DNA from: an uncultured Acetatifactor sp.
GTDB taxonomy: Bacteria > Bacillota > Clostridia > Lachnospirales > Lachnospiraceae
Length of the DNA: 64,000 nt
Reading direction: 5' to 3'
NCBI GenBank assembly: GCA_947589505.1
Contig: CANQCF010000001.1
Coordinates: 1-64,000 of the forward strand
Positions 5,715-64,000 of this stretch are shown in pieces. Each line of letters begins with the position of its first letter. Within the stretch, counting starts at the first letter, position 1. Made by a program: the position numbers and the translations under genes. A model generated the notes under the pieces. It was not told where the DNA came from and made no database searches. It saw only the letters and a program-made list of their open reading frames with translations.

Positions 5715-6230
5715 ATGCTGAGAATTGTTTTGACCGGTTTGGTCATTTTCATAAGTTTTCTGCTGCAGACCAGCGTTTTCTCCTGGCTGCCTACGGATGT
5801 ATGCCCGAATCTCTTTATTATTCTCACCGCCTCCTGCGGATTTATGGCGGAGGAACGGGCGGGACTGCTTGTGGGGTTTACCTGCGGGCTGCTGTATGAT
5901 GTTTTTTTCGGGGATATCATCGGGTTTCACGCGCTTTTGTATATGTATATCGGTTTTGTAAACGGGAAATTTGCCCGGGTGTTCTATCCTGAGGATATCA
6001 AGCTTCCCCTGGCTCTGATCACAGTCAGTGATCTGACGTACAGCCTGATCTGCTACATCACGCAGTTTCTGGTGCGGGGACGTCTCGATTTCCCCTTTTA
6101 TTTTCTGAAGGTGATTTTTCCGGAGGTCGTCTGCACTCTGGTGGCGACGCTGGTGTTCTATCCGATCATTCTGAGATGGAACGAATGGCTCAGGGACAGA
6201 GAGAGAAGGAGCGAACAGAAATTTGTTTGA
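5715..6230 (+). CDS. mreD: Rod shape-determining protein MreD
   Basis: Multi-TM, GLLYDVFFGDIIGFHALLY, follows mreC. Confidence 0.9.
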   Translation: MLRIVLTGLVIFISFLLQTSVFSWLPTDVCPNLFIILTASCGFMAEERAGLLVGFTCGLLYDVFFGDIIGFHALLYMYIGFVNGKFARVFYPEDIKLPLALITVSDLTYSLICYITQFLVRGRLDFPFYFLKVIFPEVVCTLVATLVFYPIILRWNEWLRDRERRSEQKFV

Positions 6231-9108
6231 GGACATGCGTCGAAAGGCAATTAAATATCTGACCAGCAGGATAACGATCCTTACCCTGATCTTTATCGCT
6301 CTGGGTATTGTTCTGCTCCATCGGTGCTTCCAGCTTCAGATTGTGAACGGGCAGGAATATCTGGATGAATTTATCCTCATGGTGGAAAAAAGCAGGGATA
6401 TTTCCTCTACCAGGGGCAATATCTATGACAGAAACGGCAATCTTCTGGCCTATAATGAGCTGGCATATTCTGTAAAAATCGAGGACGTCTTTGAAAACGG
6501 AAGTACAAAAAACCAGAAGATGAACGAGACCATCTGCCGCCTGATCGACCTTGTGGAGAAGAACGGAGATCATGTGATCACCGATTTTAAGATTGTCGTA
6601 AATGAGGACAATCAGTTTGAGTTTACGGTGTCCGGCACTTCGCTGCTGCGTTTTTTGGCGGATGTGTACGGGTACACCTATATCGACGAGCTGGACAAGG
6701 AAGAGCGTAACGCCTCCGCACAGGATGTGATGGAGTTTCTGAGCGGACCGAAGATGTATGCGATCGGCAGGTACAGTGTGGAGGGGGACCGCAACTCCGA
6801 CTTTTTATGCGGGGAGGGATACAGCAGGGAAGACTGGCTGAAACTGGTGACCATACGGTACGCCATGGCACTCACATCCTTCCGAAAATATATCGGAACC
6901 ATTGTGGCGACAAACGTCTGTGAGAAGACTGTGGCTGTGATCATGGAAAACTCCGCGGATCTCCCGGGGGTTACCATTGAAGAAGACACCGTCAGACGCT
7001 ATGTGGACAGCGTTTATTTTGCCCATGTGCTGGGGTACACCGGAAAAATTTCTTCTGAAGAACTTGCCGACCTGAATCAAAAGGCGGTCGAAAACGGCGG
7101 CAGCGCCGATACATACGGGCTCAACGACGTGGTGGGAAAGAGCGGCATTGAAAGCTATATGGAGACCACGCTGCAGGGGAGCAAGGGATATGAGAAGGTG
7201 ATCGTGGATAAGATGGGAAAAGTCATCCGGATCCTGGAGCGGCAGGAGGCAACCTCCGGAAAGGACGTATACCTCACCATCGATAAACAACTCACGGAAG
7301 CGGTCTACGATATTCTGGAACAGCACCTTGCCGGTCTTGTCGCCAGCAAGATTGCGAATATCAAGGAGTATATCCCCAGGCAGAATGCAAGCAGTTCAGA
7401 CATCCTGATCCCTATCTATGACGTTTATTTTGCTCTGATCAACAACAATATTATTGATGTGAAACACTTTGAAGGCGGAAAAGCCGGAGAGACAGAACAA
7501 GCGGTTTACCAGAGTTTCCTCACGTATCGCAGTCAGGTTTATGACAGGCTCCGGGAGGAGCTCCTGGAGAAGAAAACACCTTATAACAAGCTGTCGAAGG
7601 AGTATCAGGTCTATCAGAGCAACATCGTCTCCCTGCTGAACCGAAACGGCGTGATTCTCTCGGATCTGATCAGCGACAAGGATCCCATGTATATCGCCTG
7701 GACCACGGAGGAGACCATCAGCCTGCAGGAATACCTGATGTACCTGATCACCCAGAACTGGATCGACGGGAGCCTTTTGGATCTCACTGAAGAATATTCG
7801 GATTCCGCTGAAGAGTATGCAAAGCTGGTTGACTATATTATAGACATGGTGGATACAAACACCGAGTTTCAAAAGCGTTTTTATAAATATATGCTTTTGA
7901 ACGATGTGATCACCGGAAAACAGATCTGTATAATTCTCTGTGAGCAGAGACAGGTGGAGGTTCCGCTGGAGGATGAGGATGCGCTGTACAGCGGCAGGCT
8001 GACGCCCTATCAGTTTATGATGAACCGCATCAACAATATCGACATTACGCCTGCACAGCTGGCTTTGGACCCCTGTAACGGGTCTGTGGTTATCACCGAC
8101 GTCAACACGGGCGAAGTGCTGGCGCTGGTCTCTTATCCGGGTTACGATAACAACAAGCTTGCGAATTCCATCGACGCAGAATATTACGCGAAACTGAATT
8201 CGGACAAGTCCTACCCCTGGAACAATTACGCCACACAATATAAAGCGGCACCGGGTTCTACGTTCAAGATGGTTGTGGCATCAGCCGGCCTTATGGAAGG
8301 CGTGATCAGCCTGAACACCTCTATCCGCTGTACGGGAACTTATACCAATGTGACCCCTTCTCCGAGATGCTGGAATGTGTGGGGACACGGCGGGGAAAAT
8401 GTGACGACCGCCATCCGGGATTCCTGCAACTTTTTCTTTTATGACGTGGGGTACCGCCTTGCTGCGAAGAACGGTTCCTTCGATGCGGATTCGGGATTGA
8501 ATCTTCTCTATCAATATGCGGACTTTTACGGTTTAACGGAGAAATCAGGCGTGGAAATTACAGAGGCGTCTCCGGATGTCTCGGACAATGATCCGGTCCG
8601 GTCCGCCATCGGTCAGGGCGGCAACAGCTTTACCACCGTAGGCCTGGCAAGATATGTTTCGGCCGTGGCAAATTCCGGAACCGTTTATGACCTGACCCTT
8701 CTGGACCGGGTTGCGGACCAGAGCGGAAATGTGTTGGAAGAGTTTGCGCCTAAAATCCGCAATATTGTGGACATGCCCGCGCAGAACTGGGATGCGATCC
8801 ACAAAGGTATGCGGATGGTAGTTCAGAGCAAGAGCTACCTGAAGGATCTGGGAATTGAGATCGCCGGAAAGACCGGTACCGCCCAGCAGTCCAATTCCAG
8901 ACCGAGCCACGCGCTGTTTGTCTGCTACGCGCCTTATGAGGAACCGGAGATTGCAATAGCAACCCGTATTCCCTTTGGATATTCTTCCGACTATGCGGCG
9001 CAGGTTACCAAGGATGTTTTGATGTACTATTATGGCTTGGCGGAAGAAACAGATCTGATTACCGGAACCGCAGACACCCCGGAATCCGGCGTGTCTAATG
9101 AGATGTAA
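6223..9108 (+). CDS. Penicillin-binding protein 2 (class B transpeptidase), unusually long
   Basis: PGSTFKMVVASAGL (SxxK), IAGKTGTAQQ (KTG), SSTRGNIYDRNGNLLAYNE; 961 aa. Confidence 0.92.
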   Translation: MFEDMRRKAIKYLTSRITILTLIFIALGIVLLHRCFQLQIVNGQEYLDEFILMVEKSRDISSTRGNIYDRNGNLLAYNELAYSVKIEDVFENGSTKNQKMNETICRLIDLVEKNGDHVITDFKIVVNEDNQFEFTVSGTSLLRFLADVYGYTYIDELDKEERNASAQDVMEFLSGPKMYAIGRYSVEGDRNSDFLCGEGYSREDWLKLVTIRYAMALTSFRKYIGTIVATNVCEKTVAVIMENSADLPGVTIEEDTVRRYVDSVYFAHVLGYTGKISSEELADLNQKAVENGGSADTYGLNDVVGKSGIESYMETTLQGSKGYEKVIVDKMGKVIRILERQEATSGKDVYLTIDKQLTEAVYDILEQHLAGLVASKIANIKEYIPRQNASSSDILIPIYDVYFALINNNIIDVKHFEGGKAGETEQAVYQSFLTYRSQVYDRLREELLEKKTPYNKLSKEYQVYQSNIVSLLNRNGVILSDLISDKDPMYIAWTTEETISLQEYLMYLITQNWIDGSLLDLTEEYSDSAEEYAKLVDYIIDMVDTNTEFQKRFYKYMLLNDVITGKQICIILCEQRQVEVPLEDEDALYSGRLTPYQFMMNRINNIDITPAQLALDPCNGSVVITDVNTGEVLALVSYPGYDNNKLANSIDAEYYAKLNSDKSYPWNNYATQYKAAPGSTFKMVVASAGLMEGVISLNTSIRCTGTYTNVTPSPRCWNVWGHGGENVTTAIRDSCNFFFYDVGYRLAAKNGSFDADSGLNLLYQYADFYGLTEKSGVEITEASPDVSDNDPVRSAIGQGGNSFTTVGLARYVSAVANSGTVYDLTLLDRVADQSGNVLEEFAPKIRNIVDMPAQNWDAIHKGMRMVVQSKSYLKDLGIEIAGKTGTAQQSNSRPSHALFVCYAPYEEPEIAIATRIPFGYSSDYAAQVTKDVLMYYYGLAEETDLITGTADTPESGVSNEM

Positions 9109-9112
9109 CCAA

Positions 9113-9471
9113 CAGTTCAGCCAGCCGCCGGATCTGCGGAAAAAACATGCTTGCATGATTTTTTCCGCAAACCTGGCGGCTGAGGGAACGCCATAACATG
9201 AGCAAGGGAGCCGCGGAGCGGCGAAGAGCGCGTCAGCGCGGCCTTGCGAATGTATGGCGTGGCTGAACTGTTGATCCGACAGGGAAGAACGCCATAACAT
9301 GAGCAAGGGAAGCCGCGGAGCGGCGAAGAGCGCGTCAGCGCGGCCTTGCGAATGTATGGCGTGGCTGAACTGTTGATCCGACAGGGAAGAACGCCATAAC
9401 ATGAGCAAGGGAGCCGCGAAGCGGCGAAAAGCGCGTCAGCGCGGCCTTGCGAATGTATGGCGTGGCTGAAC
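9113..9471. repeat. Structured repeat copy A: leading hairpin plus three tandem cloverleaf-like modules
   Basis: Starts CAGTTCAGCC and ends GGCTGAAC; leading stem CAGCCGCC/GGCGGCTG and TGCGGAAAAAA/TTTTTTCCGCA; module starts at 9188, 9289 and 9391. Confidence 0.9.
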
Positions 9472-9496
9472 AATGCAGATTTAGAAGGAGCAGTTT

Positions 9497-10180
9497 ATGA
9501 AAGAGAACGTGCGGATCAAGAGTTTTCCTAACGGCTTGATTCTTCAGCTTTGTGAGGAGGTATCCTTCAGCGATATTCTTCGGGAAACCGCCCAAAAATT
9601 TTCGGACGGCAGAGCTTTTTTCGGAAATGCGGCGGTCGCGGTTACCTTCCAGGGGCGTGCGCTGAGCCGCAGTGAGGAACTGCACCTTGTGGATGTCATA
9701 CAGGACAACTGTGATCTCCGGGTAGTCTGTGTCGTCGCAAAGGACGAGGCGCAGAACAAGCTTTTTGTAAAGGCTGTTCAATATACAGAACGCCAGAGGA
9801 TTGCGGATACTGTACTAGGGGAGGATATCCAGGTCTTCCGCGGAGACCTCACGGGAGGCGAAAAGCTGGATACGCCCAGCAGCATTATCATTCTGGGGGA
9901 TGTGCACAGCGGATGCAGCGTTCATTCCGCTAAAAATATCCTGATCCTGGGGTCCCTTTACGGGGAAGCCTATGCCGGGCTCGGCGAGGACGGAAGGGAT
10001 CGATTTGTCATCGCTTTGGAAATGACGCCGGAAAACCTTATCATCGGCGATTTCAAATACAACGCCCCAAAGAAAGCTATCTGGGGAAAAAGAAAAAAGG
10101 AGCAGTTACTCGTTGCCAGTATACAGGAGGATAAAATTCAGATCCAGGAATTTACCAAGGAATTACTGAGTGTGTTTTAA
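9497..10180 (+). CDS. minC: Septum site-determining protein MinC
   Basis: C-terminal beta-helix VHSGCSVHSAKNILILGSLYGEAYAG; precedes minD. Confidence 0.92.
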   Translation: MKENVRIKSFPNGLILQLCEEVSFSDILRETAQKFSDGRAFFGNAAVAVTFQGRALSRSEELHLVDVIQDNCDLRVVCVVAKDEAQNKLFVKAVQYTERQRIADTVLGEDIQVFRGDLTGGEKLDTPSSIIILGDVHSGCSVHSAKNILILGSLYGEAYAGLGEDGRDRFVIALEMTPENLIIGDFKYNAPKKAIWGKRKKEQLLVASIQEDKIQIQEFTKELLSVF

Positions 10181-20382: not shown

Positions 20383-21024
20383 ATGAATACTATTATTACG
20401 ATCGGTCGTCAATTTGGCTCCGGAGGTAGAGAGATCGGAGAGAAGGTTGCGGAGTATTTCGGTATCAAGTGCTACGATAAGGAGCTTCTCACAAGAGCGG
20501 CTAAGGAGAGTGGATTCTGCGAGGAGATGATTCAGAATCACGACGAGCGTCCTACGAATTCTTTTTTGTATAACCTGGTGATGGATACCTATTCCTTCGG
20601 CTATAACGCTTCTTCATTCGTGGATATGCCCATCAGCCACAAGATCTTCCTGGCCCAGTTCGATACGATCAAGAAGATCGCGGACGAGGGCGCCTGTGTG
20701 ATCGTGGGCCGCTGTGCGGATTACGCCCTGGAAGATTACAAGAACTGTATCCACCTCTTTATCTATGGAGATGAGAAGACAAAAGTGAAACGCATTATGG
20801 AGAAGTACCAGCTCACCGAAGGCAAGGCCCTGGAAATGATCACCAAAAAGGATAAGCAGCGCCAGAGCTATTACAATTATTATTCCTCGAAAAAATGGGG
20901 CAAGGCGGACAGCTATGACCTCTGCATCAACAGCAGCGTACTCGGCATCGACGGGACCGTAAAGCTTATCGCCCAGTATGTGGAAGACTTTGAAAAAACC
21001 AGTTCAGCCAGCCGCAGCGTTTAG
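20383..21024 (+). CDS. Cytidylate kinase-like family protein
   Basis: MNTIITIGRQFGSGGREIGEKVAEYFG; RBS aaggagg; last residues encoded by repeat copy B. Confidence 0.85.
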   Translation: MNTIITIGRQFGSGGREIGEKVAEYFGIKCYDKELLTRAAKESGFCEEMIQNHDERPTNSFLYNLVMDTYSFGYNASSFVDMPISHKIFLAQFDTIKKIADEGACVIVGRCADYALEDYKNCIHLFIYGDEKTKVKRIMEKYQLTEGKALEMITKKDKQRQSYYNYYSSKKWGKADSYDLCINSSVLGIDGTVKLIAQYVEDFEKTSSASRSV

Positions 21025-21156
21025 GGAAAAATCGTGCTTGCACGAATTTTTCCCTAAAACCGGCGGCTGAGGGAGCGCCATATCATGAGCAAAGGGAGCT
21101 GCGGAGCAGCGAGAAGCGCCGCAGGCGCGGCTTTGCGAATGGCGCGGGCTGAACTG
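21000..21156. repeat. Structured repeat copy B (leading hairpin plus one cloverleaf-like module)
   Basis: CAGTTCAGCC...GGCTGAACTG termini; same order of helices as copy A with compensatory substitutions. Confidence 0.9.
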
Positions 21157-21238
21157 TGCGTGACAGGGGAGTTGGGGGAGAAATCGTGCTTGCACGAATT
21201 TTTCTGATAAATAATCAATTAAATATCATGCCCAGGAC

Positions 21239-63839: not shown

Positions 63840-63979
63840 CTGAATCTTTACACATGGATCCTTATCCCTGTACCTCAGCACATGGGTCATTATCCTTGGA
63901 TTCTTATCCCTGAACCTCAGCACATGGATCCATATCCCTGGATTTTTATCCCTGGACCTTTACACCTGGATCTTTGTTC
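63840..63979. repeat. Strict 14-bp tandem minisatellite
   Basis: Ten consecutive 14-mers in register, e.g. ATGGATCCTTATCC, CTGTACCTCAGCAC, ATGGGTCATTATCC, TTGGATTCTTATCC, CTGAACCTCAGCAC, ATGGATCCATATCC, CTGGATTTTTATCC. Confidence 0.92.
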
Positions 63980-64000
63980 TGGAATCCTTATTCCGAGGCC

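Follow-up and report, generated by a model that had tools for sequence, protein, structure and literature searches.

A probable, apparently uncatalogued modular MITE with locally multiplied cloverleaf modules behind a penicillin-binding protein gene of Acetatifactor

The cloverleaf modules between a penicillin-binding protein (PBP) gene and minC of an uncultured Acetatifactor sp. are part of a dispersed repeat. The repeat has terminal inverted repeats, is flanked in relatives by 8-bp duplications, sits at minC in a lineage-specific manner and has multiplied its module locally. We consider it likely that this element of about 166 bp is an apparently uncatalogued modular MITE, a non-autonomous transposable element that encodes no protein, and we infer its mobilization in trans by an IS66-type transposase. 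The initial annotation, made from the 64,000-nucleotide stretch analysed here (the window), had correctly recognized the module, the hairpin ahead of it, the local amplification and the place. It missed the dispersed element with its terminal inverted repeats, the 8-bp duplications in relatives and the fact that tandem modules are common.

The Locus

The features of the window that concern the element are:

6223..9108, + strand: upstream gene, penicillin-binding protein (transpeptidase), an ORF with Pfam PF00905 (2.3e-48) and PF03717 (5.5e-41)
9109..9122, + strand: 5' terminal inverted repeat CCAACAGTTCAGCC, family consensus GTAACAGTTCAGCC
9122..9182, + strand: lead hairpin, single occurrence; an inverted repeat, DNA fold z -7.1, helix covarying in the family
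9183..9187, + strand: linker AGGGA, conserved across the 32-copy alignment
9188..9260, + strand: cloverleaf module 1
9261..9274, + strand: 3' terminal inverted repeat of module 1, GGCTGAACTGTTGA, with which the basic element ends (model match 9108-9275)
9271..9288, + strand: spacer TTGATCCGACAGGGAAGA, overlapping the 3' terminal inverted repeat
9289..9362, + strand: cloverleaf module 2, with one extra A
9363..9390, + strand: second copy of 3' terminal inverted repeat and spacer
9391..9463, + strand: cloverleaf module 3, with two substitutions
9464..9471, + strand: 3' terminal inverted repeat remnant GGCTGAAC, its outer six bases missing
9497..10180, + strand: minC (Pfam MinC_C, 5.4e-17)
from 10208: minD-like P-loop ATPase gene, next after minC (Pfam CbiA/AAA_31)
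20995..21161, + strand: second full copy of the element in the window, with a single module (model match 1.1e-47)

The Pfam domains of the flanking genes (Transpeptidase/PBP_dimer and MinC) bear out the proposed position between the PBP gene and minC. The stop codon TAA of the PBP gene occupies positions 9106-9108 and the element begins immediately 3' of it. The copy consists of the element of about 166 nt (9108-9275) and two additional modules which reach 9471. The three module starts, ACGCCATAACATGAGCAAGG, are found exactly, with 0 mismatches, at 9188, 9289 and 9391, where they had been annotated, i.e., at spacings of 101 and 102 nt; shuffled sequences are expected to contain 0. Tandem Repeats Finder reports an array at 9186-9471 with a period of 102, 2.8 copies and 97% match. 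As originally described, the modules are separated by TTGATCCGACAGGGAAGA and are nearly identical with small changes: unit 2 has a single A inserted relative to unit 1, unit 3 carries two substitutions, one of which produces GCCGCGAAGCGGC, and terminates early at GGCTGAAC. The 5' end is complementary to both complete 3' ends (CAACAGTTCAGCCA at 9110 with TGGCTGAACTGTTG at both 9260 and 9362).

An antisense ORF of 287 aa (window 8545-9408, - strand) crosses the array, repeats MLMLWRSSLSDQQFSHAIHSQGRADALFAAPRLP and is probably spurious; expressed ORFs formed by large BOX elements have been reported (PMC3049150). Another tandem array, with a 42-bp unit and a 14-bp sub-period (Tandem Repeats Finder), is located at the end of the window at 63855-63991.

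A Dispersed Family

Searches of the own genome yielded 38 matches for the module and 44 for the lead hairpin. From 32 copies, fetched with their flanks, an alignment (A1) was built which served as the basis for a covariance model, R1. The element that they share comprises terminal repeat, lead hairpin, the linker AGGGA, cloverleaf and terminal repeat over about 166 nt. R1 finds 141 matches in the own genome at roughly 75 places. With opposite-strand lead-hairpin matches excluded and neighbours joined, there are 78 clusters, 25 of which hold at least two matches; these figures are approximate, as one array was split and weak matches were included. Two copies, G000:C51:124-290 and G000:C47:75-241 (L059, L060), are identical including the upstream flank, differ downstream and are near contig ends; they represent a duplication or an assembly break.

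Across the genus R1 has matches in 92 of 138 genomes; it has none in 24 genomes drawn from other families within the order. A diverged version that keeps the fold occurs in another genus of the same bacterial family; it was located by its conserved core and is recovered by R1 at up to E 2e-36. There the core is kept and the stems are swapped. The open-access literature that we searched contains no description of the family. Apparently, it is uncatalogued, and we class it as new within a known kind, the BOX-like MITEs.

The resemblance to the BOX elements of Streptococcus pneumoniae, in which boxA and boxC enclose a variable boxB array, rests on architecture as compared with the published description: both are dispersed and intergenic, fold strongly, have terminal repeats resembling those of insertion sequences and carry an inner module in variable tandem number (PMC3049150). 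Sequence and host group differ, and here the cloverleaf including the 3' terminal repeat multiplies, whereas in BOX it is the middle box. A looser parallel is the BrickBuilt MITE of Porphyromonas gingivalis, whose leader and tail enclose a tandem minisatellite; its 23-nt unit lacks spacers, the sequence is unrelated and that report covers a single species (PMC4596501).

Terminal Repeats, Target Duplications and a Potential Partner

The family has the properties expected of a MITE. The element is short, about 166 bp, and cannot encode a transposase; the ORFs in the array are antisense read-throughs, none of them transposase-like by length or content. It is present in many dispersed copies, as the 141 model matches in the own genome attest. 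The terminal inverted repeats are 14 bp long with the consensus GTAACAGTTCAGCC. In relatives the elements run from GTAACAGTTCAGCC to GGCTGAACTGTTAC, with direct repeats of 8 bp on either side, among them GGGATGGA, AATAATTT, AACTTTTG, TTTCTATG, TTTGGAGT and CAAAATTG. Flanks are identical at 7 or more of 8 bases in 17 of 126 rows from relatives, with 0.4 expected, and this set includes some false pairings that weaken the signal. In the own genome copy L053 retains the duplication TATGTATC. Target-site duplication is thus a property of the family and not of the window copy taken alone, in which none is recognisable (1/8) because the array has eroded the 3' end. The minC loci of the 29 other congeners examined all lack the element; among those read in the orientation of the gene, most have tens of bases or fewer between the upstream stop and the start of minC.

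Which enzyme would move such an element? IS66-family transposases (PF03050) are present in 47 of 138 congeners. The single-ORF members share with the MITE the type of terminal inverted repeat and the length of the duplication (L255, L256, L288, L291, L301). Their ends are GTAACTATTCAG in L255 and L256, with duplications ATTTTTAT and AAAAAAAC, GTAACTGTTCAG in L288, and GTTACAGTTCAG in L291, with the duplication CCGATTTT. Beside the L301 transposase the 14-mer GTAACAGTTCAGCC is identical to the MITE end; one end was seen and the boundary is putative. In the stretches examined, three-ORF IS66 elements (L258-L285) have no matching terminal repeat. The single-ORF, ISBst12-like IS66 elements of the genus thus correspond to the repeat in the type GTAAC..TTCAG and in the 8-bp target duplication. 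They differ in that they encode a transposase; the interiors are unrelated and the terminal repeat alone is in common. Published IS66 elements likewise generate 8-bp duplications, yet their repeats start with GTAAGCG (PMC11946415). Judged from these ends, an IS66-family DDE transposase probably moves the MITE in trans. This step we infer, since an intact transposase of the matching type was not found in the own genome (G000) and the other element-rich genomes, which are partly incomplete, and since G439 and G017, which have matching-type transposases, contain no element matches. The own genome has a 177-aa IS66 transposase fragment only, from another subgroup.

Being intergenic, palindromic and frequently tandem, the repeat also resembles REP/BIME sequences, for which a RAYT (Y1) transposase would be the mover. 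Y1 transposases are not expected to leave 8-bp target duplications, which are present here, and Y1_Tnp (PF01797) is absent from the own genome and from the element-rich G031, G034 and G035. We have rejected a RAYT/REP identity on both grounds and regard it as extremely unlikely. Cargo of a phage or plasmid was rejected as well, distant blastn being without a match. An integron attC-like site was considered and dropped because the outer bases are unconserved.

Fold and Compensatory Change

Each module folds into a cloverleaf. Its outer stem is ACGCCAT/ATGGCGT and its inner stem ATGAGCAAGG/CCTTGCGAAT, in which G-A mismatches stand in tandem; two hairpins complete the fold. The cloverleaf-like fold proposed from the letters is well supported: with DNA parameters the modules attain z -4.2 to -4.8 and the lead hairpin -7.1, and every dinucleotide shuffle is beaten. 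The whole region folded as RNA attains z -9.4, again ahead of all dinucleotide shuffles. In A1 94.6% of the cells concerned are paired. The helices carry strong compensatory change: both-sided changes affect 19 pairs and 91 cells, where shuffles give 9.1 and 28.7. The signal vanishes when the helices are slid along A1. In 70 copies from relatives, in an alignment which is fitted to the model and biased towards it, many pairs are seen in all four Watson-Crick forms. A two-base pairing beyond CAG/CTG was rejected as stem covariation; it is the remainder of the terminal repeat.

This conservation of helices across two genera exceeds the needs of a plain MITE and counts against our reading. It speaks for a structured non-coding RNA part, i.e., a 3'-UTR regulator, stabiliser or terminator, with the fold under selection and mobility incidental. 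The extent of compensatory change and the second genus, which keeps the core while swapping stems, favour such a view, and so does the gene context. Of the copies with a stop codon no more than 60 nt away, 22 of 25 in sense orientation lie within -5..+3 nt of it as against 3 of 27 in antisense, a count (L171-L250, L043-L089) that is a lead only because it was noticed post hoc, relies on a home-made ORF caller and is affected by arrays which extend the 3' side. Yet G-U pairs are rare in the family. G-T and A-C cells, 19 and 40 in A1 but 54 and 32 in relatives, lean in opposite directions, and the constraint may act on RNA or on DNA. Further, both orientations occur: 13 copies are co-directional with both neighbours and 17 are opposed to both. 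At gathering score Rfam has zero matches in the 64-kb window, and a promoter- or terminator-like consensus is absent from 9050-9520. On balance, an RNA part with incidental mobility appears unlikely. Distinctly unlikely is a further version in which the cloverleaf, with its conserved ATGAGCAAAG/CTTTGCGAAT stem, tandem G-A mismatches and covarying hairpins, would be a functional structured RNA, carried by a mobile element as a portable mRNA 3'-end part behind stop codons and dosed by module number.

Several stop-abutting sense copies are without the outer 3' terminal repeat. The window contains no tRNA, and the identity of the module as a tRNA or known Rfam RNA was rejected for want of a match to curated models. 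A terminator or promoter within the array was similarly rejected.

Tandem Growth of Modules

Some 25 loci of the own genome hold modules in tandem; triplication is therefore a common fate of the family. Median module identity is 96% within one locus and 83% between loci, and an amplification described as recent is so relative to the spread of the element. The repeated unit varies: 99-102 bp at C1, C12 and C14, 151 bp at C15, 58 bp at C107, and in G034 the whole element is in tandem with a unit of about 171 bp. Because modules of one locus are more alike and the unit differs by locus, these data point to recurrent local duplication. The claim that the lead hairpin occurs once and the 3' module alone is amplified is correct for the minC locus, but it fails as a rule, as C15, C107 and the whole-element units of G034 demonstrate. 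The spacer motif CAGGGACG recurs at many loci, which suggests that some arrays are old. In the own genome many loci, single-module ones included (e.g., L045, L049, L065, L072), have the motif CCCAGGGACG behind the 3' terminal repeat; it may belong, as an additional block, to a longer version of the element.

The exact unit count at the minC locus is uncertain because the assembly is fragmented (220 contigs). In such a draft, near-identical units of about 100 bp could be misassembled and the true number of modules could be one or another. The units are, however, distinguished by an insertion and substitutions, and tandem modules with varied periods at about 25 places, together with the whole-element tandems of G034, make an assembly artefact very unlikely.

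Implications for minC and for the Family

Returning to the MITE, we propose that in the lineage of the window it inserted directly behind the PBP stop codon and would then have grown to three modules by replication slippage or unequal exchange. Should one transcript span both the PBP gene and minC, it would carry a large fold that could lead to attenuation or to stabilisation of this mRNA. The copy between these genes is a natural test of whether such arrays influence the expression of cell-division genes. Module number could be used as a strain marker, comparable to boxB number in pneumococci. For a large bacterial genus the analysis adds a widespread and apparently unreported MITE family (92 of 138 genomes) in which compensatory evolution and the multiplication of modules in place are unusually clear.
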